Of a stretch of DNA of 64,000 nt, positions 13,103-64,000 are shown piece after piece. Within the stretch, counting starts at the first letter, position 1, and every line of letters starts with the position of its first letter. A program made the translations under genes and the position numbers. The notes under the pieces were generated by a model. It was not told where the DNA came from. It ran no database searches and worked only from the letters and a program-made list of their open reading frames with translations. The stretch is from Flammeovirgaceae bacterium 311 (GTDB taxonomy: Bacteria; Bacteroidota; Bacteroidia; Cytophagales; Cyclobacteriaceae), in assembly GCA_000597885.1 (NCBI GenBank), contig CP004371.1, positions 6,584,501 through 6,648,500 on the forward strand, given 5' to 3'.

Positions 13103-13130
13103 TTTTTAACGCATAATAAGTCGGACAGTA

Positions 13131-14210: not shown

Positions 14211-14227
14211 AATACTAAAGCTAAAGA

Positions 14228-45536: not shown

Positions 45537-46910
45537 ATGGCAGTTAGAAAAAAATCAAATCGAAAAACGTATCTCTATTTAGGTGGAGCACTTCTATTAT
45601 TAGTTGCCTTAGTAATGGTGGCCAGGGCAGCCGGCTGGATTGGCACTCCAGAGGGAGTAGAAGTAGAGCTTGCAGAGGTAGGACGACGGTCCATTGTGGA
45701 GAAAGTAGGTGCCAGCGGCATGATTCAGCCTGAAACTGAAGTAAAAATTAGCCCGGATGTTCCCGGTGAAATCACTGAGCTATATGTTGAAGAAGGGGAT
45801 TCAATCAAACCCGGACAGCTTTTACTAAAAATACGTCCTGATAACTTTCAGTCAGCCCTTTCCAGAACACAAGCCAATTTTAATGAGCGTAAGGCAAACC
45901 TGGCCTCTTCACAAAGCCGCATAACTCAGGCAGAGTCGCAGCTTGAGCAGGCCAGAAGCCAGTATGAGCGTAGCGAAAAGCTGCATAAGCAGGGTGTTAT
46001 CTCCGATGCTGATTTTGAACAGGCCCGTTTAAATTTCAGAGTAGCACAGCAGGATCTTGAATCTGCAAAACAAAATGTTCAGGCTGCCCGCTACCAGGTA
46101 GAAAGTGCCGGTGCCACAGTGCGTGAAGCCCAGGAAAACCTGAACCTTACCTCGGTATTTGCTCCTATGGGAGGTATTGTATCAAAGCTAGATGTAGAGA
46201 AAGGTGAGCGCGTGGTAGGAACCTCTCAAATGGCTGGTACAGAAATGCTGCGCATTGCAGATCTTGGCAGCATGGAAGTTCAGGTCGATGTAAATGAAAA
46301 CGACATCATTAGGGTAAACATTGGTGATACGGCTATTATTGATGTAGACGCTTATGCTTATCAAAATAAAAAGTTCAAAGGGGTAGTAACTGCTATAGCC
46401 AACACAGCTAATAACAAATTATCTCCCGATGCTGTAACAGAATTTCAGGTTAAAATAAGGATACTAAACTCATCCTATCAGGACCTGATTAACACCGGCA
46501 GAAGATCGGCTCCATTCCGGCCAGGCATGACAGCAAGCGTAGAAATCATTACCAACCGCAAAGACAATGTGCTTTCTGTACCGCTAGCAGCTGTAACAAC
46601 ACGCGAAGAAGGATCTCCTAAAACGACAGAGGGAGAAGATAATGCAGATGCAAATCCTAAAACTTTGCCTAAAACCACTGCCGAGATAAAAGAAGTAGTA
46701 TTTCTGGCCAATGAGGGTAAAGCAAAGAAAGTTGAAGTACAAACCGGTATTAGTGATTTTGAATTTATAGAAATTACTCAGGGTCTGGAGCCTGGGCAAA
46801 AAGTGGTAGCAGGTCCCTATGTTGTCGTTACCAAGCGCCTGAAAGATGGAGAAACAATCAGAGCTGCAGAAAAGAAAGAGGAGGATACTCAGGTAGCCTC
46901 AAATAAATAA
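45537..46910 (+). CDS. HlyD/MacA-type membrane-fusion (adaptor) protein
   Basis: The 457-residue adaptor has an N-terminal anchor helix (about residues 13-33), a lipoyl half-motif (SPDVPGEITELYVEEGDSIKPGQ) near 75, a long coiled-coil hairpin (about 105-205), and the second lipoyl half (TSVFAPMGGIVSKLDVEKGERV) near 205. A beta-barrel domain follows, with a membrane-proximal domain that carries a polar insert near residue 360. It would bridge the TolC-like channel to an inner-membrane pump. The expected MacB-like ABC permease is absent downstream, where a 1.27-kb non-coding stretch begins. Confidence 0.93.
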   Translation: MAVRKKSNRKTYLYLGGALLLLVALVMVARAAGWIGTPEGVEVELAEVGRRSIVEKVGASGMIQPETEVKISPDVPGEITELYVEEGDSIKPGQLLLKIRPDNFQSALSRTQANFNERKANLASSQSRITQAESQLEQARSQYERSEKLHKQGVISDADFEQARLNFRVAQQDLESAKQNVQAARYQVESAGATVREAQENLNLTSVFAPMGGIVSKLDVEKGERVVGTSQMAGTEMLRIADLGSMEVQVDVNENDIIRVNIGDTAIIDVDAYAYQNKKFKGVVTAIANTANNKLSPDAVTEFQVKIRILNSSYQDLINTGRRSAPFRPGMTASVEIITNRKDNVLSVPLAAVTTREEGSPKTTEGEDNADANPKTLPKTTAEIKEVVFLANEGKAKKVEVQTGISDFEFIEITQGLEPGQKVVAGPYVVVTKRLKDGETIRAAEKKEEDTQVASNK

Positions 46911-47214: not shown

Positions 47215-47253
47215 AAAAGAAGCCCAGCAATAATCATTAGCTGGGCTTCTTTT
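47215..47253. terminator. Perfect 14-base-stem terminator hairpin
   Basis: AAAAGAAGCCCAGC (47215-47228) and GCTGGGCTTCTTTT (47240-47253) are exact reverse complements around an 11-base loop, with A-rich and T-rich ends suiting termination on both strands. It lies 300 bases past the adaptor gene and just before the end of the minus-strand remnant. Confidence 0.88.
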
Positions 47254-47278
47254 ATTGTTTATATCTTAGCTCTTTAAC

Positions 47279-47515
47279 TCATGGAATTCTTAGGCTAAGA
47301 TTTACCTTCGCGAAAAGCGGGTTATCAATATCATCTTTCAAACGAAATGGCTCATCAGCCATGTGACTTCTGAAGAAATTATCATCGTGATTACTAAAAT
47401 AAAGGTTGTAGCACAGGCTTGCCTGTACCGAAAACAATAACGTGCGGGCAAAGCAAGGTGAAAAATATTCTAAATCTTAGTCCAGGTTTCTTAGGTTCGG
47501 GAACACCCATGCTGT
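47279..47515 (-). pseudogene. Frameshifted C-terminal remnant of an outer-membrane protein gene
   Basis: On the minus strand one frame reads MGVPEPKKPGLRFRIF from about 47510. Near 47460 the coherent coding pattern moves to another frame, which continues RTLLFSVQASLCYNLYFSNH and DEPFRLKDDIDNPLFAKVN and ends SLRIP before a TGA at 47279-47281. The second part looks like the last strands of a beta-barrel protein, but a stop codon precedes the first part and there is no room for a full gene. The change of frame plus missing 5' end suggests decay. The family is not identified. Confidence 0.45.
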
Positions 47516-48180
47516 TGTCTACCTAAACTGCAGGTTTATTCATACAGTAGCAGTTACTCTGAAAAATAAAACCAACTGCACAATACTTATGGACTAAAAT
47601 CTAAATATAGAATGAAGCCACAGGAGAGCTAGATCCCTGTGTTTATACAGCCAATATTAATTGCATGATGTGTTTATAAATCCACGGCTTAGCTAAAGGC
47701 TCCGACAAGTGTTTTAAAATATGCGTTCTAAAATTTAGCACATTCATTAAACATATCATCTAATGTGCTGTTAGGCTTTCAAAGATGATTTACCGTTATC
47801 ATCTATGTTATTTTCAAATTATGATATGATAAAAATTAGTTAATGTAGTTTTTATTGTAGTTAAATGTTATTACATTAGATGTTGTAACCGTTTAAAAAT
47901 CAATCCTCTATCTCCATTGCTTAGTGCATATTCAAAGTAAGAATTAAATACATTGGATAGCTCTCTAAGCGCAACTTTTATATATTTATTTATAGCAATT
48001 ACTGTTGTTAATTTTTTAATATGTAATAGTAATTTACTGTCAATTATATTTTAATATTTGGTCAAAGCTTCATGGGCTATGGCCATTAATTATTACTTGT
48101 CGAACATTATATGAAATGTTATGATATAGTATGTGCTGTCCTTTTCATGCCTTTACTGAAGTAACTATTCCGGATTTTTT

Positions 48181-51100
48181 ATGGAGCCCTCAAATTTTTT
48201 GAATTCATCTTTAACCCCTATCACTGCTAATCCGCTACACCCTGCGCAGCATGAGGTTTATTACGATCAGATACTTAATATAAATAGCTCCCACTATAAC
48301 CTAGGAGGTTATATTCTATTAAAGGGGCAGGTGCATACGGAAAAATTAAAGTCAGTACTTAAAACATTGCCAGAGATATTTGATGTACTAAGACTGAAGT
48401 TTGATTTTACTAATGAGGATCCTTGTTGTTCTTTTTTAGAGGAGCCTGAAGAGATTGTCCTTCAGGAATTAGATTTCAGAAATGAGGCTAAGCCAAAAGA
48501 ATGTGCTCTGGAATGGATGCAGACACAGTTTAATAAGACTTTTGATTTAAAGGGACAACTTTTTGAACATGCGCTGTTGACAATATCTGATGATGAACAC
48601 TGGCTGTATGGGCGCTATCATCATTTAATAACAGATGGGTATGGCTTTACCATCTGTTGCCAGTATATTGCCCAAGGCTACTCAAAACAGCTTAGTGCAG
48701 CAGCAGCAAAACAACACTACCACTCCTATGAAAAGGAGGTAATAAAAGCGATTGCCTATATAGACTCCGAATCTTATCAAAAGGATGCTTTATACTGGAG
48801 AACACAATTCAAAGAATTACCCGATCCTTTACTTAGAAAAAAAAACAAGCTGCAGCTGGCAGAAGTGGTCCAGAGCAAAACTAAAATTATAGGCATCACA
48901 GAGCATCAGGCGCAATTTTTAGAAGCCTTAATGTCAGTAACAGGTATAAGCCTGCAGCAGCTAACACTAGCTGCATTAAGCATTTATTTTGCTCGTACTG
49001 AAAACAGGAAGCAGATAATTTTTGGTGTTCCGGTTCATAACCGCAGAAACAAACTGCAGCGGGTTACCATGGGTATGTTTGCGGGAATGATTCCTTTTAA
49101 AGGGTTTTATGATGCCGAGCTATCACTGGCAGATTTTTTACAGAAATTTAAACTTCAGCAGCGAAATGATTACAGGCACCAAGGGTATCCCATCAGCCAT
49201 TTGAACAGAGAACTGAAATTGATGTCAACGGGCAGAAGCCAGATATTTGATGTAGCGGTTAACTATGCCCTTTTAGATTTTGAAATTGCATTTGACGGAC
49301 TTCAGGCAAAAACTTTTGATATGGCCAGCCAATCAGAAATGTACCCGTTACATTTCTGGTGGAGGGACTACGGCAAACAGCAAGCATTACAGTTACGAAT
49401 TGATTACCAGCTGGCTTATTTCTCCGAAGAAGAAATTGAGCAGCTCGGCCGGCGCCTGCTTTTTTTGCTGGAGCAGTTTCCTGCTGCCCTTGATAAGCGG
49501 GTGGGTGATATTCGGCTTGTAACTGATCAGGAGCAACAGTATCTGCTGGAACTTTCAAATCATGCAACAACAACTTTTCCTGAAAATAAAACACTGGTAA
49601 CTCTCTTTGAAGAGCAACTCAAACAAAATCCTGATGCCACGGCAGTGGTCTTCAAAGATGAGCGGCTTACTTATAGGGAGCTTAACAATAGCTCTAACCA
49701 GCTGGCCCATTACCTGCAGCAGAATGGGATTAAAGAAGAAAGTCTGTTACCCCTGTGCGTTGACAGATCTTTAGAAATGATCATCGGGTTGTTAGGAATT
49801 CTTAAAGCAGGTGCGGCCTATGTGCCCATAGATCCGGCTTATCCGAAAGAAAGAATTCAGTATATGCTCCGGGATACCGGGGCTACCCTTGTGCTATGCA
49901 CAGCTGCTACCCTGGAGCTTTTTACAGATGCTGAAGACCAGACGTTGGTGCTCCTAGATGAGGACTGGCATAAAATAGCAGCAGAATCTGCAGAAAAGCC
50001 TGTTAACGACTTGCAACCCACCAATCTTGCCTACGTGATTTATACTTCAGGCACAAGCGGTAAGCCCAAAGGAGTACTGGTGGAGCATCGTAGCGTAGTA
50101 AACCTTATTCATCATCAGACTAGAGTATTTGGTATAGGTAAAGATGAAAAGATACTGCAGCTTTCCAACTATGCTTTTGATGCTTCCATAGAACAAATCT
50201 TTCTGGCCCTTTGCAATGGAGCAAGCCTGGTGGTACTGCCTAAAGAAACAATGCTGGATCCTGATAAGCTGGTACGATTAATCAGCGAACAGGAGATTAC
50301 TCATTTGCATGCTACGCCTTCTTTTTTAAAGCAGCTTTCACCCGGGAGATACAAGCAATTAAAAAGGGTAATTGCTGGGGGAGAGGCTTGTCCGGAAAGT
50401 TTGGCTACTGCCTGGGAAGACTATGTACAGTTTTATAATGAGTATGGTCCTACAGAAACCACTATAACAGCAACAGAATATACCTGGTCTTCTGAATGTT
50501 TAGGGAGTGAAAAAATGGTCCCCATTGGCAGACCAGTGGCTAATACTAGCGTTTATGTGGTAGACTCCGAAGGTAGGCTGGTGCCAAAAGGTGCTTCGGG
50601 AGAATTATTCATTGGTGGGGTGCAGGTGGCAAGAGGTTACCTCAACAGGCCTGATTTAACTGCAGAAAAGTTCGTTGACAATAAATTTTCTAATGACAGG
50701 GAGGAAAGGCTCTATAAAACCGGCGACCTGGTAAGGTGGCAGCCCGATGGTAACCTGGTTTACCTGGGCCGTCTGGATGACCAGGTTAAAATTAGGGGTT
50801 ACCGCATAGAAATCGGTGAGGTGGAAAGCGTACTCAACCAGTGCAGCGGTGTAAAAGAGGCTGTTGTTCTGGCAAAGACAGATGCCTCCGGCAATAATCG
50901 TTTACTGGGCTATGTAGTACCCGAACAAGCTTTCGACAGAGACGCTATCCTCAGCCAGATAAAGCAGGTGCTTCCGGAGTATATGGTTCCATCTTTGATC
51001 ATAGAAACCAAAGAAATACCCCTGACCTGGAATGGAAAAGTAAATAAAAAAGCCCTCCCTGAAGATATTGACAGCATAGACCTTAAGAACCGCTATGTTG

Positions 51101-54100
51101 CCCCCCGTAATGGGACAGAGGAGCAATTAGTATTAATTTGGCAGGAGCTGCTTGGGCTTGACCGAATTGGGGTGGAAGATAACTTCTTTGAGCTGGGGGG
51201 GCATTCGCTTTTAGCAACCCGCCTGCTGTCTGTGCTTCGTAAAACATTTCAGCTGGAACTGCAGGTGAAAGATATATTTTCCCATCCTACAATTGCCAGC
51301 CTGGCAGGGGAATTACTAGCAAAAGGTAAGGGAAATGTATTGCCTTCAATTGTTCCTGCTAACAGATCAGGCAGGCTGCCGCTATCTTTCTCCCAGGAAC
51401 GTCTGTGGTTCATAGATCAGCTACAGGGTAGTAGTCATTATCACCTTCCTGCAGTTTTCCGACTCCGGGGCAATCTTAATAAAGAAGCGCTTTCTGCTGC
51501 TTTCCGCCAGATAATCCGTCGGCATGAGGTGCTCCGCACTGTAATCCGGCAGGAAGAAGGAAAGGGATACCAGCTGGTACTGGATACAGAATGGGAGTTA
51601 ACCAGCAGGGATGGTAGCTCATTTGCAGATACAACTGCATTGCATCATTTTATTCAATCATATATTCAGGCGCCATTTAACTTAAGCAAGGATTGTATGC
51701 TGCGGGCAGTGCTGGTGGAGCATTCGGAGCAGGAGCATCTGCTGGTGGTAGTGCTTCACCACATAGCTTCAGATGGTTGGTCTGTTCCCATTCTCGCCCG
51801 TGAACTGGCACGTCTTTATCAAACCGGGGGCGGTGTTACGGCCGCTGGTTTGTCACCTTTAGCTATTCAGTATGGCGACTATGCGTTGTGGCAGCGCAAA
51901 CATCTGCAAGATTTGCAGGATGAACAGCTTGCTTACTGGAAGCAAAAGCTGAACGGACTTGATGCATTAGAGCTTCCTACAGACTATGCTCGGCCGGCAG
52001 TAAAAAGCAATGCTGGTGGTATGATCACATTGAAGCTGGACCGGAAGTTGGTGCAGGAGCTGGAGACATTCTCCAGGAAGGAGGAGGTTACACTGTTTAT
52101 GAACCTGCTGGCAGCCTTTAAGGTGCTGCTGTATCGCTACAGCGGACAGGAAGATATTTGTGTGGGCAGTCCTATAGCAGGCCGTAGACTTCCCGAATTA
52201 GAGACGATGATTGGCTTTTTTGTAAATAGTCTTGCATTACGAACACAAATAAAACCCGATCAGAATTATCGCTCCCTGCTACAGGAGGTAAAAGCCACTA
52301 CACTGGAGGCCTATGAGCACCAGGATGTTCCCTTTGAGAAGGTGGTAGAAGCAATGGGCGTGATCAGGGATATGAGTCGTAGTCCCCTGTTTCAGGTAAT
52401 GTTCTCAATGCAGAATACCCCTGCAGAGCCATTCCTTCAACTGGGAGATCTTAGCTGCACTTGGGAGCCAATAGAGAGCCATACTGCCAAATTCGATCTA
52501 AGCGTTAACGCAGTAGTTGATAAGGATGAAATAGTAATAAGTGCAGAATTCAGCAAAGACCTTTTCTCAGCTACAACCGTAGCGCGTATGCTGGGTCATT
52601 ACCAGTTGCTTTTATCTCAGCTGCTACAGAATCCACATTCAGCTGTATCCCAGCCCGAGCTGGTAACCCATCAGGAGAAGCATCAGCTCATTGAAGAATT
52701 TAACGCTACAGCAGCAGCCTATCCTTCAGACAAGACATTGGTGGAGCTGTTTGCAGCCCAGGCAGCAGGCACACCAGAAGCAGTAGCAGTGGTAGATGCA
52801 TCAGCCTCACTGACCTACAAAGAGCTGGATGAACGCAGCAACCAGTTAGCCCACTACCTTATCAGCAAGGGTGTAACAGCAGAAACACTGGTGCCCCTGT
52901 GCCTGGAGCGGAGCATCAATTTAGTAGTAGCCCAGCTGGGGGTGCTCAAAGCAGGCGGAGCCTATGTACCCATAGATCCTTCTTACCCACAGCAGCGGAT
53001 CCAGTATATGTTAGAAGACACAGCAGCATCTATAGTGCTAAGCAGCAGTGCTTACCGGGAGCTGCTGGGAGAAAGAGCAGAAGCCATTCTTTTAGACAGC
53101 CAGAGGGAGGAGATAGCTAAAGAATCTGCAGCCAGTCCAGCTGTAGCGCTTGATCCCTCTAAGCTTGCTTATGTGATCTACACCTCTGGATCTACGGGTA
53201 AACCAAAAGGAGTGCTGGTGGAGCACCGTGGGGTGGTGAACCTTTGCTCCTGGCACATCAGGGAATATGGGCTTTCAACAGAATCAAGATCCACTATGAT
53301 GGCAGGAGTAGGCTTTGATGCTTCCGTGTGGGAAGTATGGCCGGTGCTGCTTTCAGGAGCAGGTCTTTATGTAGTGAAGGATGAGCAGCGCCTGCAGGCA
53401 GAGGAGCTTTTAGGCTTCTACAGCCAGCGAGCCATCACCCACAGCTTTGTACCCACTGCCCTTGTAGAGGGGCTGCTAAAGCTGGAACAGCCAAAGGAGC
53501 TGAAACTACAGTGGGTACTCACAGGCGGAGACCAGCTGCGGGAGGTATCCACAGCTCATCTGCCCTGGAAGCTGGTGAACCACTACGGACCAACAGAGAA
53601 CACAGTAGTAGCATCAGCTTATACCCTGAAAGCTACAGAAGAAGGCTTACCACCTATAGGCAAGCCCATCAGCAACACCAGGGCCTATGTGCTGGACAAG
53701 CAGGGCAGGCTGGTGCCAGAAGGTGTAGCCGGGGAGCTGTGCATAGGAGGTGTACAGGTAGCAAGAGGCTACCTGTACAGAGAGGAGTTAACAGCAGAGA
53801 AGTTTGTCAGAGATCCTTTCTCATCTGATGAAGAATCCAGGATGTACAGAACAGGCGACCTGGTCAGGTGGCGGGGAGATGGAGAGCTGGAGTACCTGGG
53901 CAGGATAGATGACCAGGTGAAGATCAGGGGCTACAGGATAGAGCTGGGCGAGGTAGAGAGTGTGCTGCGCCAGTGCAGCGGTATCAAGCAGGCAGTGGTG
54001 CTGGCAAAGCAGGATGCAGGGGGCAACAAGCGTCTGATCGGCTATGCAGTAGCAGCAGGAGCATCAGCCATAGATAAGGCAGCCATCGCAGAAGAGATGA

Positions 54101-57100
54101 AGCAAAGGCTGCCAGAGTACATGGTGCCAGCCATTCTGGTAGAGGTAGAGGAGATCCCTCTCACTGCCAATGGCAAGGTAGACAGAAAGGCCCTGCTGCA
54201 GCTAGACACTTCAGAAGCACTTACTTCTTCCTATGTAGCCCCCAGCACAGCAATAGAAGAAAAGCTTGCTCGGATATGGCAGGAGCTGCTGGGGGTAGAA
54301 AAGGTAGGGGTGGAAGATAACTTCTTTGAGCTGGGAGGAGATTCCATCATCACCATACAGCTGGTGAGCAGGGCCAGGAGAGCAGGATTCTCTTTCCAGC
54401 CCCGCGATGTGTTCGAGCACCAGACCATAGCCTCTCTTGCAGGGGTAGTAGCTAAAGAAGCAGTCATTGACGCAGAGCAGGGAGAACTAAGTGGAGAGGC
54501 AGGCTTACTGCCCATCCAGCAGTGGTTCTTCGAGCAGGACTATGCGCAGCCTAACCACTTTAATCAGTCTCTCCTGCTCAAGGTAAGCAAAGAAGTAACT
54601 GAAGAAGCACTGGATAGAGCAGTGAAAGCCCTGGTGGCCCGTCATGATGCCCTTCGTTTCACTTACAGCAAAGAAGCAGGCGCATGGCAGCAGGCATATG
54701 GAGCAAAAGAAGGAGCACTGATCGTAGAAGATCTTTCTGCTGTTAACGCACAGGAGCTTGGTAGCAGGATAGAAGAGCAGTGCGAGGAGTACCAGCAGCG
54801 CCTGGACCTGGAGCAGGGAGAGCTCTACAGGATGGTGCTGCTGAAAACACCACAGCAGCAGGAGGCAAACAGATTATTCCTGGTGATCCACCACATAGCC
54901 GTAGACGGAGTAAGTTGGAGGATCCTGTTGGAAGAGCTGGAGCAGAGCCTGCAGGCCATCAGCCAGAACAAAGCAGTAGCACTGGGCGCAAAGAGCAGCT
55001 CCTACCGCCAGTGGCAGGGGGCTCTGCAGGAGTATGCTAAGACGAAAGCCATACGCCAGCAGGACTATTGGCAGAAAGTAGCTAAAGCAGCCTTCATCCT
55101 TCCTGTAGATAAAGAAGCAGGAGCTTCTTTTGTGGAGGACCAGAGAACAGTAAAAGTAGCACTGGATGCAGAGCTTACCCAGGCCCTGTTAACAGAGGTA
55201 AATAAGGCATACAACACGCAGATCAATGATATCTTACTGGCAGCCCTTGCCCGCACCCTTGGCAGCTGGAGCAGCCAGCAGCAGGTGGTGATCGGGCTGG
55301 AGGGCCATGGCAGGGAAGATATCTCTTCGAAGCTGGACATCAGCCGGACCATTGGCTGGTTCACCAATCTATACCCGGTGCTGCTCTCGCTCAAAGGAGC
55401 GGAAGAGGCATCAGATGTGATACAGACGGTGAAGGAGCAGTTGCGGCAGGTGCCTGACAAAGGCCTTGGCTGGGGAGCACTGCGCTACCTGCACCCAGAG
55501 CAGCAGGTGCGGGAAAGCCTCTCCACAGCAAATACATTCCAGCTTACCTTCAACTACCTCGGGCAGCTGGATAATGTAATCAGTGCCAGCCAGTGGTTTT
55601 CCGGTGCGCAGGAATCAGCAGGTTCTTCCATTGGAAAATATAATAAGCGATCTACAAGTCTTGATATCACTGCTTCCATAACCGAAGGTCAGCTGGTGCT
55701 TAACTGGCGCTATGGAGGTAAGCATTACCAGGAAGCTACTATAACAACTTTGGCAGCTGATTTCTTAGATTGTCTTGAAAATTTAATCCGCCATTGCCAG
55801 GGAAAAACAGTTCCTCAGGCTACTCCTTCAGATTATGGTCTGACTGGGAAAGTGGAGTATCGGGAACTGGAAGCATTTCTGGCAACAGAGCAATATGGTA
55901 AACCACTCCGGGAGCAGATCAGTACACTCTATGGATTAACCCCAATGCAGCAGGGGCTGTTGTTTCATGGCCTGTATGATAAAACTTCACCTGCCTACAT
56001 AGAGCAACTTAATTGCAGGCTTACAGGAGTAGATGTTGATGCATTCCGGAAGAGCTGGGAATATATTATTCAGCAACACAGCATCCTTAGGAGCTCCTTC
56101 CATCAGAACCTGAGTATACCTGTACAGTGTGTTCATCATTCGGTGGAGCTACCTTTTGAGCTGCTTGATTTCAGGAATGCATCGGAAGAGGAGCAAAAAG
56201 AGCAGTTGTCAGCTTTTATGGAGGCAGACGCAAAGAAGGGCTTTGACTTCAGCCAGGCGCCGCTGCTGCGGCTCAGCCTCTTCAGGTTATCAGAAGATAG
56301 CTTTCAGATGGTCTGGACGCACCACCACCTGTTGCTGGATGGCTGGTCAATGCCGGTACTGATGCAGGAGCTGCTAAACACCTACGAGCGCCTTAGCAAA
56401 GGGGAGCAACTGCCACAGGTAGAAGAAGACCGCTATGAAGACTTCATCCGCTACCTGGACAAAAAAGATCCGCAGCAGGCAGAAGTGTTCTGGAGAGAAT
56501 ACCTGCAGGGAGTAGAAGAACCAAGTTTACTTCCTTTTGTAGACAGCAGAAGGGACCGCACCAAAGGCGGGGCCAAGTATGCACATGTACACCTTCAGCC
56601 CGGGGAAGAAGATCAGCAGCAGCTGCAGCAGTATGTGCAGGAGAATCGCCTGACGATGAACACACTGGTGCAGGGCGTATGGGTATACCTGCTCTCTTCC
56701 TATACAGGACAGGCAGATGCTGTCTTTGGCGTAACGGTAGCAGGCAGGCCAACAGAATTAGAAGGATCAGAAACAAGAGTAGGACTCTACATCAACACCC
56801 TTCCACTACACGCACATGTTGCAGCAGAGCAGCCGGTAAGGGAGTGGCTGCTGGCCCTTCAGCAGGGGCATAGTGCAGCAAGAGAGCATTCCCACACCGC
56901 CCTTTCTGCTATTCAGCAGTGGCAGGGAGTAAAGGGAGATCTCTTCGACAGCCTGCTGGTATTCGAGAACTATCCTATGGGAGAGGTATTCTCTCGCAGC
57001 TGGAGCCTTCAGGTAGAGGGTCTTCATATGGAAGAACATACCAACTACCCGTTGTCGATCATTGCCAAGGGGTCCAGGCAACTTTCGATTGAATTCAGTT

Positions 57101-60100
57101 ACAATGCAGCCCTGCTAAGCCAGCAACAGGTAGAAAGGATAAAGGAGCACTTTGCAGCCGTGCTCCATCAGATCATCTCACAACCCCATGTGACAGTTTC
57201 GCAACTAGAGCTGGTAACACAGCAGGAGAAGCATCAGCTCATTGAAGAATTCAACGCTACAGCAGCAGCCTATCCACAGGAAGAGACACTTGTTTCTCTA
57301 TTTGCAGCCCAGGCAGCAGGCACACCAGAAGCAGTAGCAGTGGTAGATGCATCAGCCTCACTGACCTACAAAGAGCTGGATGAACGCAGCAACCAGTTAG
57401 CCCACTACCTTATCAGCAAGGGTGTAACAGCAGAAACACTGGTGCCCCTGTGCCTGGAGCGGAGCATCAATTTAGTAGTAGCCCAGCTGGGGGTGCTCAA
57501 AGCAGGCGGAGCCTATGTACCCATAGATCCTTCTTACCCACAGCAGCGGATCCAGTATATGTTAGAAGACACAGCAGCATCTATAGTGCTAAGCAGCAGT
57601 GCTTACCGGGAGCTGCTGGGAGATAGTGCAGAAGCCATTCTTTTAGACAGCCAGAGGGAGGAGATAGCTAAAGAATCTGCAGCCAGACCAGCTGTAGCGC
57701 TTGATCCCTCTAAGCTTGCTTATGTGATCTACACCTCTGGATCTACGGGTAAACCAAAAGGAGTGCTGGTGGAGCACCGTGGGGTGGTGAACCTTTGCTC
57801 CTGGCACATCAGGGAATATGGGCTTTCAACAGAATCAAGATCCACTATGATGGCAGGAGTAGGCTTTGATGCTTCCGTGTGGGAAGTATGGCCGGTGCTG
57901 CTTTCAGGAGCAGGTCTTTATGTAGTGAAGGATGAGCAGCGCCTGCAGGCAGAGGAGCTTTTAGACTTCTACAGCCAGCGAGGCATCACCCACAGCTTTG
58001 TACCCACCGCCCTTGTAGAGGGGCTGCTAAAGCTGGAGCAGCCAAAGGAGCTGAAACTACAGTGGGTACTCACAGGCGGAGACCAGCTGCGGGAGGTATC
58101 CACTGCACATCTTCCCTGGAAGCTGGTGAACCACTACGGACCAACAGAGAACACAGTAGTAGCATCAGCTTATACCCTGAAAGCTACAGAAGAAGGCTTA
58201 CCACCTATAGGCAAGCCCATCAGCAACACCAGGGCCTATGTGCTGGACAAGCAGGGCAGGCTGGTGCCAGAAGGTGTAGCCGGGGAGCTGTGCATAGGAG
58301 GTGTACAGGTAGCAAGAGGCTACCTGAACCTGCCAGAGCTGACAGGGGAGAGGTTTGTCAGAGATCCTTTCTCATCTGATGAAGAATCCAGGATGTACAG
58401 AACAGGCGACCTGGTCAGGTGGCGGGGAGATGGAGAGCTGGAGTACCTGGGCAGGATAGATGACCAGGTGAAGATCAGGGGCTACAGGATAGAGCTGGGC
58501 GAGGTAGAGAGTGTGCTGCGCCAGTGCAGCGGTATAGAGCAGGCAGTGGTGCTGGCAAAGCAGGATGCAGGGGGCAACAAGCGTCTGATCGGCTATGCAG
58601 TAGCAGCAGGAGCATCAGCCATAGATAAGGCAGCCATCGCAGAAGAGATGAAGCAAAGGCTGCCAGAGTACATGGTGCCAGCCATTCTGGTAGAGGTAGA
58701 GGAGATCCCTCTCACTGCCAATGGCAAGGTAGACAGAAAGGCCCTGCTGCAGCTAGACACTTCAGAAGCACTTACTTCTTCCTATGTAGCCCCCAGCACA
58801 GCAATAGAAGAAAAGCTTGCTCGGATATGGCAGGAGCTGCTGGGGGTAGAAAAGGTAGGGGTGGAAGATAACTTCTTTGAGCTGGGAGGACATTCGCTGT
58901 TGGCAACACAGATGGTTTCTTCAGTTCGTAAAAATTTCAAATCGGAACTGCAGATCAAAGATGTATTTGCCAATCCTACGCTTAAAGACATTGCTAAGCA
59001 ACTGCAGTTGGGAAATGGATCAACGCTCCTGCCACCAATAGTTGCCGTTCCGCACGATAAAGAAGCTAAGCTCCCTTTATCCTATTCACAGGAACGGCTA
59101 TGGTTTCTTGATCAGCTCTATGGCAGTACCCATTATCATCTGCCGGCAGTATTCAGACTTCAGGGGAAATTAGACGTTCCTGGTTTCGAAGAAGACTTCA
59201 GGGAAATAGTAAAGCGTCATGAAGCGCTTCGCACCGTTTTCATCCAGCAGGAGAGTGTGGCTTTCCAACAGGTGATGGATGCTGGAGACTGGGAGTTAAG
59301 CTTTATGGATGCTGATGCTTTTGTAGACCCTGCCGCCATTCACGGACTGGTTCAGAAAACAATACAGCAACCTTATGATCTCAGCAAGGACTTTATGCTG
59401 AGGGCAGTGCTGCTGCGCATTTCAGAGCAGGAACACCTGCTGATCGTTGTGCTGCATCACATTGCCTCCGATGGCTGGTCTGTGTCAGTACTGGTAAAGG
59501 AACTTACAGAGCTTTATAGTGCGAGAACACAAAACAGAAGAGCCATCCTTCCAAAGCTGGCTATACAGTATGCCGACTATGCCCTGTGGCAGCGCGAGTA
59601 CCTGCAGGGAGAAGTGCTGGAGGAGCAGACCACTTACTGGAAGCAGAAGCTTTCCGGTGTAGAGGCACTACAATTGCCAACGGATTTTGTGCGGCCATCC
59701 GTACAAAGCACAAGAGGTGGCAGGCTTGAGCTAAGCCTAAGCAAGGAGTTAAGCCGGCAGCTGGAGATATTCTCTCAACAGGAGGGGGTAACTCTTTTCA
59801 TGAGTTTGTTGGCAGCCTTTAAGGTGTTGCTGTATCGTTACAGCGGGCAGGAAGACATCTGCGTGGGTAGTCCCATAGCAGGCAGGGTACAGCCAGAGCT
59901 TGAACCCATGATTGGCTTTTTTGTCAATACCCTCACCCTTCGCTCGGAACTTAGTGGCGAAAAGAGTTTTAAAGAGCTGCTGAAGCAGGTGAAGCAAACA
60001 ACATTGGATGCTTATTCGCACCAGGATCTTCCCTTTGAGAAGGTGGTGGAGGCCGTAGGTGTCAACCGTGACATGAGCCGCAGTCCTCTCTTCCAGGTGA

Positions 60101-62226
60101 TGTTTTCGCTGCAGAACACACCTGCTGTGCCAACTATTGAGCTGGGTGGGCTTACCTTGAGCAACGAATCCATAAAAAATCCTACTACAAAGTTCGATCT
60201 GACCCTGGACGTTACTGTGCGGCCGGAAGGTCTTCAACTGGAGGTAGAGTACTGTTCCGATCTCTTTATGGAAGCAACAGTAGTGCGAATGGTGGAGCAT
60301 TATCAGTGTCTGCTTTCAGAAATGTTGGAGACTCCCGCAAAAGCAATTGATCAGCTCCCGCTTTTAGGAAAGAAGGAGCGCAAACTATTACTGAAAGGCT
60401 TCAATGATACAGAGGCTGTCTATCCTAAAGAAAAGTCCCTGGTAATGTTGTTTGAGGAGCAGGTGGCAAAAACACCTGATGCCGTAGCAGTAGAATTTGA
60501 TGGTAATGAGCTGACATACGAGCAGCTAAACAACAAATCAAACCAGCTGGCCCATTACCTGCAGCAAAAAGGTGTGGGTGAAGAAAGCCTCGTGCCTGTA
60601 TGCATAGACCGGTCACTTGAAATGGTGATAGGGCTGCTGGGCGTGCTGAAAGCTGGGGGAGCTTATGTGCCGCTTGATCCATCCTATCCGCAGGACCGCA
60701 TAAGTTATATGCTTGAAGATACAGCAGCAGTACTTGTATTGGGCGGCAGTAACTACAAAGCTATGCTTACAGCAGAAGGGGAGCGCCAGCTGGTGCTGCT
60801 CGATGAGGACTGGCCGCTGATTGCACAGGAGCCTTTAGGCAATCTGGACATTAAACCAAAGCCTTCCAACCTGGTCTACGTCATCTACACATCAGGCTCT
60901 ACGGGAAAGCCAAAAGGCGTGCTGATCCAAAATCAGTCCCTGGTGAACTTCCTTTATTCTATGGTAGATCAGCTGGAAGTACAAGCCGGGGCAAGCTTAC
61001 TGGCCGTTACCACCTATAGCTTTGATATCTCTTACCTTGAGCTATACATGCCGATGCTGGTGGGCGGAAAGGTAATTCTGGCCAGCAGAGAAACCGCAAT
61101 GGATGGTGCGCTGCTACAGGAAAAGCTGGCTGTACATCAGCCATCTTACATGCAGGCAACCCCTGCAACCTGGCAGATACTGCTGGATAGTGACTGGGAA
61201 AATAAGGAAAACATTACCATCCTTATAGGGGGAGAAGCCGTTAGGGAAACCCTGAAAAATTCGCTCACAAAGCTAAGCAAGCGGGTATGGAACTTATATG
61301 GGCCAACAGAAACAACCATCTGGTCTACCTGTAAAGAGCTTAAAGCAGCCGAAAAAGTAACGATAGGCAAACCTATCGCCAACACCCAAATTTACATACT
61401 CGACAAGGCAGGGGCTCCTGCTCCTGTAGGTGTGGCAGGAGAGCTGTGTATTGGAGGCGACGGATTGGCCCGAGGATATTTAAACCGCACAGAACTAACG
61501 GCCGAACGCTTTGTGCCGGATCCTTTCAGCCAAAATCAGGGAGCCAGAATGTACAGAACAGGAGATCTTGCCCGCTGGCTGGCCAATGGAGAAATTGAAT
61601 ACCTAAGCCGCCTTGACGATCAGGTGAAAATCCGTGGATACAGGATAGAATTAGGGGAAATAGAAAGTGTGCTGCAGCAATGCGATGGTGTAGGCCAGGG
61701 CGTGGTAGCTGCCAGAACAGATAGTACAGACGGAAATAAAAGATTGGTAGGCTATGTTGTACCCCAAGGAGCTATCAGAAAAGAAGCTATTATAGCACAG
61801 CTTAGGGCAAGACTGCCCGAATTTATGGTTCCAACAGTCATAGTTCCACTAGAAGAGCTGCCGCTGACGCCAAATGGCAAAATAAACCGCAAAGCCTTGC
61901 CTGAACCAGATGTATCTAAACTGCTTATCAATCAGTATGTAGCACCACGAAACGATACAGAAGAGAAATTGACACACATATGGCAGAACCTGCTCAAGCT
62001 TGATCGTGTGGGCGTAAAGGATAACTTTTTTGAATCAGGAGGAGACTCCTTGTTAGTGGTTAGGGCTGTTTCCCTGATCAGGCAGGAGTTCTCACTGGAT
62101 ATACCTGTTGATACACTGTTCAAATTAAGCTGTATTGCCGATTTGGCAGAATATATAGATGCTGTGACTATAGACACTGATCAGCAGGATTTAGATGACG
62201 AAGACGTCGAAATTTTCGAATTATAA
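48181..62226 (+). CDS. Four-module nonribosomal peptide synthetase (C-A-T, C-A-T-E, C-A-T, C-A-T)
   Basis: The 4681-residue synthetase has these domains, with active residues: C1 (HHLITDG, His147); A1 (about 475-985); T1 (Ser1009 in GGHSLL); C2 (HHIASDG, His1193); A2 (about 1500-2025); T2 (Ser2055 in GGDSII); E (HHIAVDG, His2237); C3 (HHLLLDG near 2715, DCL-like LTPMQQGLLFHGL); A3 (about 3017-3540); T3 (Ser3572); C4 (HHIASDG, His3759); A4 (about 4060-4590); T4 (Ser4623 in GGDSLL). There is no thioesterase, and the protein ends in an acidic tail (DLDDEDVEIFEL). Pocket residues read by eye are A1 DAEHIGEIT (unassigned), A2 and A3 DAWFLGHVV (like the Leu code DAWFLGNVVK), and A4 DILQLGLIW (Gly code). 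The predicted product fragment is X - D-Leu - Leu - Gly. All HHxxxDG and Ser sites are intact. Confidence 0.96.
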   Translation: MEPSNFLNSSLTPITANPLHPAQHEVYYDQILNINSSHYNLGGYILLKGQVHTEKLKSVLKTLPEIFDVLRLKFDFTNEDPCCSFLEEPEEIVLQELDFRNEAKPKECALEWMQTQFNKTFDLKGQLFEHALLTISDDEHWLYGRYHHLITDGYGFTICCQYIAQGYSKQLSAAAAKQHYHSYEKEVIKAIAYIDSESYQKDALYWRTQFKELPDPLLRKKNKLQLAEVVQSKTKIIGITEHQAQFLEALMSVTGISLQQLTLAALSIYFARTENRKQIIFGVPVHNRRNKLQRVTMGMFAGMIPFKGFYDAELSLADFLQKFKLQQRNDYRHQGYPISHLNRELKLMSTGRSQIFDVAVNYALLDFEIAFDGLQAKTFDMASQSEMYPLHFWWRDYGKQQALQLRIDYQLAYFSEEEIEQLGRRLLFLLEQFPAALDKRVGDIRLVTDQEQQYLLELSNHATTTFPENKTLVTLFEEQLKQNPDATAVVFKDERLTYRELNNSSNQLAHYLQQNGIKEESLLPLCVDRSLEMIIGLLGILKAGAAYVPIDPAYPKERIQYMLRDTGATLVLCTAATLELFTDAEDQTLVLLDEDWHKIAAESAEKPVNDLQPTNLAYVIYTSGTSGKPKGVLVEHRSVVNLIHHQTRVFGIGKDEKILQLSNYAFDASIEQIFLALCNGASLVVLPKETMLDPDKLVRLISEQEITHLHATPSFLKQLSPGRYKQLKRVIAGGEACPESLATAWEDYVQFYNEYGPTETTITATEYTWSSECLGSEKMVPIGRPVANTSVYVVDSEGRLVPKGASGELFIGGVQVARGYLNRPDLTAEKFVDNKFSNDREERLYKTGDLVRWQPDGNLVYLGRLDDQVKIRGYRIEIGEVESVLNQCSGVKEAVVLAKTDASGNNRLLGYVVPEQAFDRDAILSQIKQVLPEYMVPSLIIETKEIPLTWNGKVNKKALPEDIDSIDLKNRYVAPRNGTEEQLVLIWQELLGLDRIGVEDNFFELGGHSLLATRLLSVLRKTFQLELQVKDIFSHPTIASLAGELLAKGKGNVLPSIVPANRSGRLPLSFSQERLWFIDQLQGSSHYHLPAVFRLRGNLNKEALSAAFRQIIRRHEVLRTVIRQEEGKGYQLVLDTEWELTSRDGSSFADTTALHHFIQSYIQAPFNLSKDCMLRAVLVEHSEQEHLLVVVLHHIASDGWSVPILARELARLYQTGGGVTAAGLSPLAIQYGDYALWQRKHLQDLQDEQLAYWKQKLNGLDALELPTDYARPAVKSNAGGMITLKLDRKLVQELETFSRKEEVTLFMNLLAAFKVLLYRYSGQEDICVGSPIAGRRLPELETMIGFFVNSLALRTQIKPDQNYRSLLQEVKATTLEAYEHQDVPFEKVVEAMGVIRDMSRSPLFQVMFSMQNTPAEPFLQLGDLSCTWEPIESHTAKFDLSVNAVVDKDEIVISAEFSKDLFSATTVARMLGHYQLLLSQLLQNPHSAVSQPELVTHQEKHQLIEEFNATAAAYPSDKTLVELFAAQAAGTPEAVAVVDASASLTYKELDERSNQLAHYLISKGVTAETLVPLCLERSINLVVAQLGVLKAGGAYVPIDPSYPQQRIQYMLEDTAASIVLSSSAYRELLGERAEAILLDSQREEIAKESAASPAVALDPSKLAYVIYTSGSTGKPKGVLVEHRGVVNLCSWHIREYGLSTESRSTMMAGVGFDASVWEVWPVLLSGAGLYVVKDEQRLQAEELLGFYSQRAITHSFVPTALVEGLLKLEQPKELKLQWVLTGGDQLREVSTAHLPWKLVNHYGPTENTVVASAYTLKATEEGLPPIGKPISNTRAYVLDKQGRLVPEGVAGELCIGGVQVARGYLYREELTAEKFVRDPFSSDEESRMYRTGDLVRWRGDGELEYLGRIDDQVKIRGYRIELGEVESVLRQCSGIKQAVVLAKQDAGGNKRLIGYAVAAGASAIDKAAIAEEMKQRLPEYMVPAILVEVEEIPLTANGKVDRKALLQLDTSEALTSSYVAPSTAIEEKLARIWQELLGVEKVGVEDNFFELGGDSIITIQLVSRARRAGFSFQPRDVFEHQTIASLAGVVAKEAVIDAEQGELSGEAGLLPIQQWFFEQDYAQPNHFNQSLLLKVSKEVTEEALDRAVKALVARHDALRFTYSKEAGAWQQAYGAKEGALIVEDLSAVNAQELGSRIEEQCEEYQQRLDLEQGELYRMVLLKTPQQQEANRLFLVIHHIAVDGVSWRILLEELEQSLQAISQNKAVALGAKSSSYRQWQGALQEYAKTKAIRQQDYWQKVAKAAFILPVDKEAGASFVEDQRTVKVALDAELTQALLTEVNKAYNTQINDILLAALARTLGSWSSQQQVVIGLEGHGREDISSKLDISRTIGWFTNLYPVLLSLKGAEEASDVIQTVKEQLRQVPDKGLGWGALRYLHPEQQVRESLSTANTFQLTFNYLGQLDNVISASQWFSGAQESAGSSIGKYNKRSTSLDITASITEGQLVLNWRYGGKHYQEATITTLAADFLDCLENLIRHCQGKTVPQATPSDYGLTGKVEYRELEAFLATEQYGKPLREQISTLYGLTPMQQGLLFHGLYDKTSPAYIEQLNCRLTGVDVDAFRKSWEYIIQQHSILRSSFHQNLSIPVQCVHHSVELPFELLDFRNASEEEQKEQLSAFMEADAKKGFDFSQAPLLRLSLFRLSEDSFQMVWTHHHLLLDGWSMPVLMQELLNTYERLSKGEQLPQVEEDRYEDFIRYLDKKDPQQAEVFWREYLQGVEEPSLLPFVDSRRDRTKGGAKYAHVHLQPGEEDQQQLQQYVQENRLTMNTLVQGVWVYLLSSYTGQADAVFGVTVAGRPTELEGSETRVGLYINTLPLHAHVAAEQPVREWLLALQQGHSAAREHSHTALSAIQQWQGVKGDLFDSLLVFENYPMGEVFSRSWSLQVEGLHMEEHTNYPLSIIAKGSRQLSIEFSYNAALLSQQQVERIKEHFAAVLHQIISQPHVTVSQLELVTQQEKHQLIEEFNATAAAYPQEETLVSLFAAQAAGTPEAVAVVDASASLTYKELDERSNQLAHYLISKGVTAETLVPLCLERSINLVVAQLGVLKAGGAYVPIDPSYPQQRIQYMLEDTAASIVLSSSAYRELLGDSAEAILLDSQREEIAKESAARPAVALDPSKLAYVIYTSGSTGKPKGVLVEHRGVVNLCSWHIREYGLSTESRSTMMAGVGFDASVWEVWPVLLSGAGLYVVKDEQRLQAEELLDFYSQRGITHSFVPTALVEGLLKLEQPKELKLQWVLTGGDQLREVSTAHLPWKLVNHYGPTENTVVASAYTLKATEEGLPPIGKPISNTRAYVLDKQGRLVPEGVAGELCIGGVQVARGYLNLPELTGERFVRDPFSSDEESRMYRTGDLVRWRGDGELEYLGRIDDQVKIRGYRIELGEVESVLRQCSGIEQAVVLAKQDAGGNKRLIGYAVAAGASAIDKAAIAEEMKQRLPEYMVPAILVEVEEIPLTANGKVDRKALLQLDTSEALTSSYVAPSTAIEEKLARIWQELLGVEKVGVEDNFFELGGHSLLATQMVSSVRKNFKSELQIKDVFANPTLKDIAKQLQLGNGSTLLPPIVAVPHDKEAKLPLSYSQERLWFLDQLYGSTHYHLPAVFRLQGKLDVPGFEEDFREIVKRHEALRTVFIQQESVAFQQVMDAGDWELSFMDADAFVDPAAIHGLVQKTIQQPYDLSKDFMLRAVLLRISEQEHLLIVVLHHIASDGWSVSVLVKELTELYSARTQNRRAILPKLAIQYADYALWQREYLQGEVLEEQTTYWKQKLSGVEALQLPTDFVRPSVQSTRGGRLELSLSKELSRQLEIFSQQEGVTLFMSLLAAFKVLLYRYSGQEDICVGSPIAGRVQPELEPMIGFFVNTLTLRSELSGEKSFKELLKQVKQTTLDAYSHQDLPFEKVVEAVGVNRDMSRSPLFQVMFSLQNTPAVPTIELGGLTLSNESIKNPTTKFDLTLDVTVRPEGLQLEVEYCSDLFMEATVVRMVEHYQCLLSEMLETPAKAIDQLPLLGKKERKLLLKGFNDTEAVYPKEKSLVMLFEEQVAKTPDAVAVEFDGNELTYEQLNNKSNQLAHYLQQKGVGEESLVPVCIDRSLEMVIGLLGVLKAGGAYVPLDPSYPQDRISYMLEDTAAVLVLGGSNYKAMLTAEGERQLVLLDEDWPLIAQEPLGNLDIKPKPSNLVYVIYTSGSTGKPKGVLIQNQSLVNFLYSMVDQLEVQAGASLLAVTTYSFDISYLELYMPMLVGGKVILASRETAMDGALLQEKLAVHQPSYMQATPATWQILLDSDWENKENITILIGGEAVRETLKNSLTKLSKRVWNLYGPTETTIWSTCKELKAAEKVTIGKPIANTQIYILDKAGAPAPVGVAGELCIGGDGLARGYLNRTELTAERFVPDPFSQNQGARMYRTGDLARWLANGEIEYLSRLDDQVKIRGYRIELGEIESVLQQCDGVGQGVVAARTDSTDGNKRLVGYVVPQGAIRKEAIIAQLRARLPEFMVPTVIVPLEELPLTPNGKINRKALPEPDVSKLLINQYVAPRNDTEEKLTHIWQNLLKLDRVGVKDNFFESGGDSLLVVRAVSLIRQEFSLDIPVDTLFKLSCIADLAEYIDAVTIDTDQQDLDDEDVEIFEL
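52750..54339 (+). repeat. Long intragenic repeat, copy 1 (A2 region)
   Basis: This covers almost all of adenylation domain 2 through the start of T2 and matches 57301-58890 at a constant offset of 4551 bases with no insertion or deletion. Only scattered differences are seen, most clustered in three short patches: GERAEAI/GDSAEAI, GFYSQRA/DFYSQRG and YLYREELTAEKF/YLNLPELTGERF. The match ends sharply where T2 becomes GGDSI and T3 becomes GGHSL. Confidence 0.9.
57301..58890 (+). repeat. Long intragenic repeat, copy 2 (A3 region)
   Basis: This is the second copy of the A2/A3 direct repeat. A weaker match extends upstream to about 57209 (52658 in copy 1). Repeats this long and this similar in one gene are prone to recombination and to misassembly. 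The start of a third related copy is seen at 63919-64000 in the next synthetase gene. Confidence 0.9.
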
Positions 62227-62286
62227 CAACTGAAGTTCTGGTACTTTTTAATCACAATTCAACTCTGAGTTTTTAATATTTTTTCT

Positions 62287-64000
62287 ATGAGTAACACTTT
62301 TACGGAAGTTATTGGCATTCTAAGCAAGGCAAAAAAAGAGGGGATCTCCATTTTTCTGGATGGCGACAAACTTAAATTTAAGGTTGAAAAGAATAAAACC
62401 TTAGATAAGTTATTCATTGAAAAGATTAAGGAAAATAAACTGGCCATCATTGATTTCCTAAGTAGCGAGGAAGGAAATGTTAAGAAACTAGATGTTCAAC
62501 AAAAAAAGATAAAACCTGTCAAGCGGGAGGATTATCAAACTATCCCCCTGTCCTTTTCCCAGGAGCGGTTATGGTTCATCGACCAGTTGCAGGGCAGCAG
62601 CCACTACCATTTACCGGCAGTCTTTCGCCTGAAGGGAGCGCTGGATGTAGCAGGATTGGAGGAGTCTTTCCGCCAGATCCTGGAGCGGCATGAGTCACTT
62701 CGCACTGTTTTCCTCCAGCAGGAGGGCGAGGCTTATCAGCAGATCATGGATGCTGCTCACTGGCAGATGGGCTACAGAGAAGCCCCTGTACAGGATAGTG
62801 CTTCCTTAAGAGCATTGGTAGAGGGGGCAGCAGCACAGCCTTTCGACCTAAGCAAAGACTATATGCTGCGCGTGGAGCTGTTAAAGCTTTCTGAACAGGA
62901 GCACCTGCTGGTGGTGGTGCAGCACCATATTGCCTCCGATGGCTGGTCCTTATCGGTACTGGTAGGAGAGCTTACGGAGCTATACAAAGCAAAGCAGGAA
63001 AACAGGGAGCCCCGCTTGCTTCCCCTGCCCATCCAGTATGCCGACTATGCCCTATGGCAGCGCGAGTACCTGCAGGGAGAGGTGCTGGAGGAGCAGAAGC
63101 AGTACTGGAAGCAGCAGCTTTCAGGTGTGGAAGCCTTATCTTTACCTACAGACTATGTACGTCCGCCGGAGCAGAGCACGCGCGGTGGCAGGCTAAGCTT
63201 CAGCCTGGACAAAGGGCTAAGCCAGCAGCTGGAGCAGTTCTCCAACGAGCAGGGGGCCACACTTTACATGAGCCTGTTGTCAGCCTTCAAGGTGCTGCTG
63301 TATCGCTACAGCGGTCAGGAGGATATCTGCGTGGGCAGTCCTATCGCAGGCAGGCTGCAGCCGGAGGTAGAGCCCCTGATTGGCTTTTTTGTCAACACCC
63401 TTGCCCTTCGCAGCGATCTTAGCGGCAACAAGAGCTTCAAAGAGCTTGTAGAGCAGGTAAAAGGGACAACACTGGAGGCATACAAGCACCAGGACCTGCC
63501 TTTTGAGAAGGTAGTGGAGGCAGTAGGTGTAGCCAGGGACAGAAGCAGAAGCCCACTCTTTCAGGTAGTGTTTACCCTGGATAATACGCCTGAAATGTCG
63601 CAGGTAAAATTAGGTGAACTTATTCTTACTGCAGAGAACCTTGAAAATGCTACAACCAAGTTTGATCTTATTCTGAGTGTAAGCAAGCATACAGATGGTA
63701 TGCGCATGCATGTAGAATACTGCACCGACCTCTTTGCGGAGGCAACTATAGCCCGGATGATGGAACATTACCAGCGCCTGCTTGCTCTGGTGATGGCAGA
63801 TCCCGCAACAAAAATAGATGAGCTGCCCCTTTTGAATATTCAGGAAGAACAGCAGCTGATAAAAGAATACAACGCTACAGCAGCAGCCTATCCTTCAGGC
63901 AAGACATTGGTGGAGCTGTTTGCAGCCCAGGCAGCAGGCACACCAGAAGCGGTAGCAGTAGCAGATGCATCAGCCTCACTGACCTACAAAGAGCTGGATG
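62287..64000 (+). CDS. Second nonribosomal peptide synthetase, 5' part (TubC docking - C - A...)
   Basis: The frame is open from ATG 62287 to the right edge (571 codons) with no stop, so the gene is cut by the window. Residues 1-58 (start MSNTFTEVIGILSKAKKEG, then ISIFLDGDKLKFKVEKN and ending KLAIIDFLS) match the TubC N-terminal docking domain. After a Lys-rich linker comes an LCL-type C domain with SFSQERLWFIDQLQGSSHYH near residue 88 and HHIASDG at His213. From about residue 530 an adenylation domain begins with EYNATAAAYPSGKTLVELF, almost the same as A2 of the first synthetase. The gene starts 60 bases after the first NRPS and is surely co-transcribed. It adds at least one more residue, probably Leu if the A domain stays like A2. 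Confidence 0.93.
   Translation, partial: MSNTFTEVIGILSKAKKEGISIFLDGDKLKFKVEKNKTLDKLFIEKIKENKLAIIDFLSSEEGNVKKLDVQQKKIKPVKREDYQTIPLSFSQERLWFIDQLQGSSHYHLPAVFRLKGALDVAGLEESFRQILERHESLRTVFLQQEGEAYQQIMDAAHWQMGYREAPVQDSASLRALVEGAAAQPFDLSKDYMLRVELLKLSEQEHLLVVVQHHIASDGWSLSVLVGELTELYKAKQENREPRLLPLPIQYADYALWQREYLQGEVLEEQKQYWKQQLSGVEALSLPTDYVRPPEQSTRGGRLSFSLDKGLSQQLEQFSNEQGATLYMSLLSAFKVLLYRYSGQEDICVGSPIAGRLQPEVEPLIGFFVNTLALRSDLSGNKSFKELVEQVKGTTLEAYKHQDLPFEKVVEAVGVARDRSRSPLFQVVFTLDNTPEMSQVKLGELILTAENLENATTKFDLILSVSKHTDGMRMHVEYCTDLFAEATIARMMEHYQRLLALVMADPATKIDELPLLNIQEEQQLIKEYNATAAAYPSGKTLVELFAAQAAGTPEAVAVADASASLTYKELD

Follow-up and report, generated by a model that had tools for sequence, protein, structure and literature searches.

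What does the nonribosomal peptide synthetase (NRPS) locus at the right-hand end of a 64,000-nucleotide stretch of the Flammeovirgaceae bacterium 311 genome make, and is its assembly line as long as it appears? The stretch, hereafter the window, corresponds to G000:C1:6584501-6648500 of a genome (G000) that consists of a single contig (C1) of 6,665,617 bases. An original prediction for this DNA proposed one intact four-module synthetase and the start of a second, forming a line that continues past the window; both open reading frames (ORFs) are confirmed, and the second was followed to its end. On balance, and with little more than even confidence, we propose that two colinear synthetases (4 + 8 modules) make an N-acylated cationic peptide of 12 residues. 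Confidence is no higher because the proposal depends on all 12 modules being genuine and on an acyl chain, both of which are contested by rival explanations. The two genes lie in the window as follows.

48181..62226, plus strand: NRPS1, modules M1–M4, an intact ORF of 4681 amino acids (aa)
62287..64000, plus strand: NRPS2, first 571 aa of 10,634, ORF open at the window end

The reading frame of NRPS2 reaches the final base of the contig (G000:C1:6665617) without a remainder, and from base 1 of the contig a further 4357 aa follow in frame 0, as far as C1:13074, and supply the rest of the protein. The total of 10,634 aa (6277 + 4357) contains no internal stop, nor do the 15,315 aa of NRPS1 and NRPS2 together. 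The two parts meet at the N-terminal edge of the M10 condensation domain; in Cesiribacteraceae bacterium YIM B00369 (G099), the counterpart NRPS2 gene is unbroken (9591 aa) and has the same domains at this place. Given the in-frame continuation across the contig ends and the unbroken gene in the relative, we take the contig to be a circular chromosome that was linearised within NRPS2. Modules 6–12, the terminal thioesterase and the contig break are seen only beyond the window. As 17 of 17 condensation-family matches of the whole genome (18 candidates scored) fall here, this is the only NRPS locus found.

The domain order, modules, codes, stereochemical logic and conservation in a relative can all be read from sequence. 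Motifs and family matches give NRPS1 the architecture Cs-A-T (M1), C-A-T-E (M2), C-A-T (M3) and C-A-T (M4), where C, A, T and E denote condensation (Cs, starter), adenylation, thiolation and epimerization domains. NRPS2 comprises a docking domain, M5–M7 each C-A-T, M8–M11 each C-A-T-E, and M12 C-A-T-TE, with TE the terminal thioesterase. The line thus holds 12 modules with 12 A, 12 C and 5 E domains and the thioesterase. Those domains located inside the window are listed below.

48232..49548, plus strand: M1 condensation domain, apparently acyl-starter type (Pfam Condensation 5e-63; best PDB match 7C1K, 4.6e-30; own tree clade)
49582..51057, plus strand: M1 adenylation domain, DAEHIGEITK, predicted basic, perhaps Arg (alignment, pocket code)
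51370..52689, plus strand: M2 condensation domain, LCL type (family match, tree, PDB search)
52717..54195, plus strand: M2 adenylation domain, DAWFLGHVVK, predicted Leu (pocket code; exact 1211-bp run common with M9)
54496..55806, plus strand: M2 epimerization domain (motifs, family match, E clade in tree)
55924..57240, plus strand: M3 condensation domain, DCL type (family match, tree, PDB search)
57268..58746, plus strand: M3 adenylation domain, DAWFLGHVVK, predicted Leu (pocket code)
59062..60393, plus strand: M4 condensation domain, LCL type (family match, tree)
60421..61899, plus strand: M4 adenylation domain, DILQLGLIWK, predicted Gly (pocket code)
62317..62463, plus strand: TubC-type N-terminal docking domain of NRPS2 (Pfam TubC_N 2.5e-6, 27.9 bits against a cut-off of 26)
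62536..63858, plus strand: M5 condensation domain, LCL type (family match, tree)
63886..64000, plus strand: M5 adenylation domain, truncated at the window end ahead of its pocket (Leu code read outside the window)

The HHxxxDG motif is intact in 17 of 17 C and E domains, and the A5 motif and Lys517 are present in all 12 A domains. The T motif was found by pattern in 11 of the 12 modules; the twelfth (M12, GGDSL) was read in the alignment. NRPS2 ends in a thioesterase (Pfam Thioesterase, 1.9e-23). Ordered C-A-T modules with catalytic motifs and a chain-release domain at the end place the system among the type I modular NRPSs.

A maximum-likelihood tree of 44 C and E domains from three genomes was built without reference domains, and its groups were named from module position and PDB searches. 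It resolves starter (3 domains), E (14), DCL (13) and LCL (14) groups with support of 100/99, 100/99, 100/100 and 90/94, respectively. Each of the 13 DCL domains comes immediately after an E domain, and the E domain that had been placed in module 2 is found there. The C domain of M1 matches RzmA-Cs (7C1K, the structure of the study PMC7804268) with 108 bits, followed by EntF (85), TycC (78) and the CDA starter C domain (4JN3; 66). As controls, the C domain of M2 matches Txo2 (303 bits), Txo1 and TycC first and RzmA with 63 bits, and that of M3 matches McyB (312 bits), bacitracin synthase 3, PvdL, tyrocidine synthase 2 and SrfA-C first, with RzmA absent from its PDB matches at 1e-10. The first module of the line thus appears to open with a C domain of the acyl-starter type.

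Turning to substrate choice, pocket residues were read from an alignment of the 12 A domains, at positions (GrsA numbering) and against reference codes for Gly, Ser and Phe that we take to be the standard ones. The codes of M4 (DILQLGLIWK), M8 (DVWHLSLIDK) and M12 (DAYVVAAVCK) presumably select Gly (exact code), Ser and an aromatic residue, respectively. DAWFLGHVVK is common to M2, M3, M5, M9 and M11 and is Leu-like, being one residue off the common Leu code DAWFLGNVVK. This re-reading bears out the earlier calls of Leu-like codes for modules 2 and 3 and of an exact Gly code for module 4. The Leu bracketed for module 5 cannot be read in the window, as its pocket lies beyond the end (about 38 A-domain residues are inside), and the Leu-like code appears once the sequence outside is included. 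An excerpt of PMC12283262 gives DAWFLGNVVK for Leu and DILQLGMIWK for Gly. The remaining codes, DAEHIGEITK (M1), DAEHIGEVTK (M6 and M7) and DAEDIGEITK (M10), are assigned with good confidence to a basic residue (X), which narrows the M1 code that the original prediction had left unassigned. The predicted order of codes is X-dLeu-Leu-Gly-Leu-X-X-dSer-dLeu-dX'-dLeu-aromatic; its residues 1–5 of 12 agree with the X-dLeu-Leu-Gly-Leu start proposed before. Among basic residues Arg may be slightly ahead. In most of the 37 Arg domains covered by the same excerpt (PMC12283262), the residues run D, A/V, E, D, I/V/L, G, A, V/I, T/D, K; M10 agrees at 9 of 10 positions and M1, M6 and M7 at 8, against 6 for the line's Leu, Ser and aromatic codes and 5 for its Gly code.

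Together, these domains may form an assembly line in which the starter C domain would join an acyl donor, probably fatty acyl, to residue 1. The TubC-type docking domain would help the transfer from NRPS1 to NRPS2, the five E domains would set the D configuration at residues 2, 8, 9, 10 and 11, and the terminal thioesterase would release the chain, linear or cyclised. The predicted order is acyl-Arg-dLeu-Leu-Gly-Leu-Arg-Arg-dSer-dLeu-dArg-dLeu-Phe, in which Arg stands for any basic residue (slightly ahead of Orn, Lys and 2,4-diaminobutyric acid, Dab) and Phe for any aromatic. With Phe as the aromatic residue, the calculated mass of the linear 12-mer bearing a C12 acyl group would be 1681.124 for Arg ([M+3H]3+ 561.382; 1709.156 with C14), 1569.100 for Lys and 1513.037 for Orn; cyclisation would lower these values by 18.011, and the YIM B00369 counterpart would lack the mass of one X residue (156.101 for Arg, 128.095 for Lys, 114.079 for Orn). 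Such a product would be a lipopeptide of cationic and amphipathic character; the neighbouring major facilitator superfamily (MFS) transporter, and perhaps a TolC/HlyD pair, would export it, and its simplest role would be that of an antimicrobial or surface-active compound. We infer the substrates, acyl chain, release mode, export and activity of the product.

Comparison with relatives supports the order of codes. The M1 starter region was found at two loci in the named genome collection, from which records of the window's own genome may be omitted: Cesiribacter sp. SM1 (G030; 75% identity) and YIM B00369 (61%). NRPS1 of YIM B00369 is 67% identical overall, and its line has 11 modules, reading X-Leu-Leu-Gly-Leu-X-Ser-Leu-X-Leu-aromatic with E domains at the same modules, that is, the order of G000 minus one X. 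Across the 11 common modules, six codes are identical and five differ at one position. In the SM1 fragments, A domains can be read for M1, part of M2, M4, M8, M10 and M12; four of these six codes are identical to those of G000 and one is identical but cut at its last residue, while M10 differs at two positions (DAEHIGEVTK versus DAEDIGEITK). In whole-genome searches, the starter region is present in two of three genomes of the genus and, at E <= 1e-60, in 3 of 390 sampled genomes of the family (G000 included in both counts). In a sample of 395 genomes of the phylum, nine match at 1e-50, namely G000 and eight others only 27–30% identical. With the threshold relaxed to E <= 1e-3, matches appear in 54 of 196 family genomes, a breadth to be expected of condensation domains as such. 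Two members of the family, G013 (6.1 Mb) and G072 (8.7 Mb), have 105 and 87 condensation-domain candidates on a first look (seven each scored), and on this first look appear NRPS-rich.

Several observations weigh against the proposed peptide, beginning with its basic residues. The Arg trend is broken by Glu at 322 and by His at 278, and two codes for other residues approach it: DMEDVGSVDK (Orn, also Lys) at 8 of 10 positions, level with M1, M6 and M7, which weakens the lean to Arg, and DGEDHGTVTK (Orn) at 7 of 10. The Lys code of BacB, DAESIGSV in the excerpt of PMC3207962, agrees with M6 at 6 of 8 positions, and no occurrence of the full X codes was found in the literature; the strings DAEHIG and DAEDIG returned matches that, judged by title, concern a cell-cycle inhibitor and eggshell. 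It is accordingly a close contender, a little short of even, that the same line incorporates Orn, Lys or Dab rather than Arg. Glu239 also occurs in Lys codes, in BacB-M1 and in the pyoverdine Lys module of P. syringae (DGEDHGTV), according to the same excerpt (PMC3207962). The 9 of 10 agreement of M10 nevertheless speaks for Arg, as does DVESIGGVTK, an Arg/homoarginine code that departs from the trend at the same two positions (278, 322) as M1, M6 and M7.

The acyl chain is contested as well. EntF and the non-starter TycC outrank the CDA starter C domain among the matches of the M1 C domain, whose best NCBIfam model is MxcG (162 bits, well short of the cut-off set for the whole protein), and no fatty-acyl ligase is present among the 10 neighbouring proteins scanned. 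An N-terminus carrying an acetyl or aryl group, or nothing, would make the product no lipopeptide in the surfactant sense; RzmA itself makes rhizomide A with an acetyl chain (excerpt of PMC7804268), and the C domains of EntF and MxcG are close relatives of that of M1. We regard this as unlikely, with perhaps a quarter of the weight: the CDA starter C domain is also among the better matches, and the genome contains no EntE-type ligase over the cut-off. A dihydroxybenzoyl cap, raised by the MxcG and EntF matches, is less favoured on the latter ground, the EntE model giving 21 genome matches of which none exceeds the cut-off (best 189.5 versus 723.55 bits). The identity of the product is also questioned by NRPS1 scoring above curated cut-offs for two NCBIfam models that carry product names, AusA (2671 versus 2500) and SolG (2338 versus 2200). 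We provisionally discount both as likely identities because these scores sum over six and four repeated stretches, respectively, and the architectures differ. Among the matches listed, literature on the codes, the genus or the product class describes no product of this line; that on Cesiribacter gene clusters concerns, by abstract, phosphogypsum microbiomes, with nothing for this line among the matches listed.

The number of modules depends on a repeat inside NRPS2. A perfect 3147-bp tandem repeat occupies G000:C1:6649342-6658254, starting 842 bases past the window end. At lag 3147, 5766 consecutive positions (C1:6649342-6655107) are identical, giving 8913 bases or 2.83 exact copies. The repeated stretch starts at a point between A5 and A7 of M5 and ends shortly ahead of A3 of M8, so that in every unit Asub, T and C accompany a whole Acore. 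The extra module M7 falls within it; M6 and M7 are identical, and M8 has the N-terminal part of its A domain in common with them but a different, Ser-type core. NRPS2 of YIM B00369 has no exact run longer than 41 bp at lags of 3000–3299. The Leu modules are similarly uniform: the five Leu A domains of G000 are 89–97% identical to one another, against 70–78% in YIM B00369 and 68–72% between the two genomes (25 pairs), and they group with the single readable one of SM1 (tree support 100/99). An exact 1211-bp run is common to M2 (NRPS1) and M9 (NRPS2), across two genes; among the Leu modules of YIM B00369 no exact run exceeds 40 bp, and equivalent positions in the two genomes share longest runs of 16–20 bp.

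The exact repeat, the M2–M9 run and the uniform Leu modules form a pattern to be expected of duplication and gene conversion inside the locus; it looks like the result of recent events of this kind, or else of an assembly effect. Module gain by duplication is known from the field. We tentatively propose, at somewhat less than even confidence, that an 11-module line was lengthened to 12 by an exact in-frame tandem duplication, adding one cationic residue, that its Leu A domains are under ongoing gene conversion, and that the enlarged line works. That M7 and the identical Leu stretches are instead assembly or polishing artefacts, the real line having 11 modules like the relative, we consider improbable, though to be taken seriously given the absence of any difference in 5766 compared positions and the single X module of YIM B00369 at the M6–M7 place. 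The SM1 genome, with no contig that contains a full-length M6–M7 among 12 matches, is too fragmented to weigh on either side. Against an artefact, the frame is open through all copies, a one-contig genome would suggest reads able to span 8.9 kb, and the 1211-bp run sits in two different genes. The SM1 contigs, moreover, break at Leu modules, which is where breaks would fall if that genome also had near-identical copies. The 3147-bp repeat is a good test case for the assembly of repetitive synthetase genes.

A silent or decaying cluster that makes nothing is very improbable: no regulator lies among the 10 neighbouring proteins scanned and few family genomes carry the starter region (3 of 390 at 1e-60), but the catalytic motifs of the C, E and A domains are all kept, 15,315 aa contain no stop, thioesterases, a phosphopantetheinyl transferase (PPTase) and exporter genes are present, and the codes are kept in a relative 61–67% identical.

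Earlier work already describes NRPS lipopeptides, starter C domains and Acore recombination (excerpts of PMC9248904, PMC7804268 and PMC8097286). The proposed cationic lipopeptide resembles the chitinopeptins of Chitinophaga eiseniae and C. flava, as portrayed in the excerpt of PMC9248904, which are also Bacteroidota NRPS lipopeptides with embedded E domains and a TE domain; C-starter domains occur in three of the four clusters described, and here one appears to open M1. They differ in their 14 or 15 residues, among them beta-hydroxy-Asp and 2,3-diaminopropanoic acid (Dap), and in clusters that contain hydroxylation and sbnA/sbnB-like genes; the 10 neighbouring proteins scanned here include none of these (the genome was not searched for them). 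With 12 modules and none of 12 codes reading as Asp or Dap, the line falls outside a family defined by 14–16 modules with beta-hydroxy-Asp and Dap. The Dap codes used in this comparison are those we assume to apply. The pedopeptins and isopedopeptins of Pedobacter, also from Bacteroidota, are, in the sources as excerpted, cyclic lipodepsipeptides containing Dap, and in isopedopeptins also Thr, D-Phe and Val, in an order unlike that predicted here. The starter C domain of RzmA, acyl-CoA-using according to the excerpt of PMC7804268, is the closest solved sequence relative of the M1 C domain, in a single-domain comparison at 108 bits. Acore recombination as outlined in the excerpt of PMC8097286 likewise exchanges subdomains inside A domains, as seen for M6/M7 versus M8; unlike there, the repeat unit here carries Asub, T and C as well as a whole Acore.

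Two genes upstream of NRPS1 are candidates for export.

44064..45527, plus strand: TolC-type outer-membrane efflux protein, possible export gene (Pfam OEP 2.5e-46)
45537..46910, plus strand: HlyD/RND-type periplasmic adaptor, possible export gene (Pfam HlyD_D23 1.4e-18; NCBIfam RND_mfp 2.6e-47)

An ORF matching the TolC-type gene in length (487 aa) lies upstream in locus L014, and a 495-aa ORF downstream of the NRPS genes of YIM B00369 may be its counterpart, by size and order. Downstream of the NRPS genes of G000 are a stand-alone thioesterase, an MFS transporter and a PPTase; that the TolC/HlyD pair and the MFS protein export the product is a guess. About 14 kb beyond the PPTase gene, on the minus strand, a 601-aa ORF (L012 10771-12576; C1:30771-32576) is, by eye, acyl-CoA synthetase-like. 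MbtH has no match in the genome, which argues neither way. The 1.27 kb between the adaptor gene and NRPS1 (window 46911-48180) contains no ORF longer than 52 aa and no Rfam match and may be an extended leader or promoter region; in L014 the equivalent gap measures about 0.8 kb. Neither Rfam nor tRNA scanning produced a match anywhere in the window. Elsewhere in the window, Pfam matches at 5807-18055 indicate an ordinary respiratory set (Fe-S protein, NrfD, ActD of alternative complex III, COX2, COX1 and a UbiA-type prenyltransferase), and a 1157-aa ORF at 25486-28959, directly behind a 1232-aa histidine kinase-type protein, has no Pfam match at 1e-3.

If the proposal is true, this little-studied branch of the Cytophagales would yield a cationic lipopeptide with a full predicted sequence and masses. 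The 11-module relative and the 12-module strain with its perfect repeat would then constitute a natural experiment on adding a module without breaking the line, a goal of NRPS engineers; and if the enlarged line works, it would show which boundaries nature tolerates.

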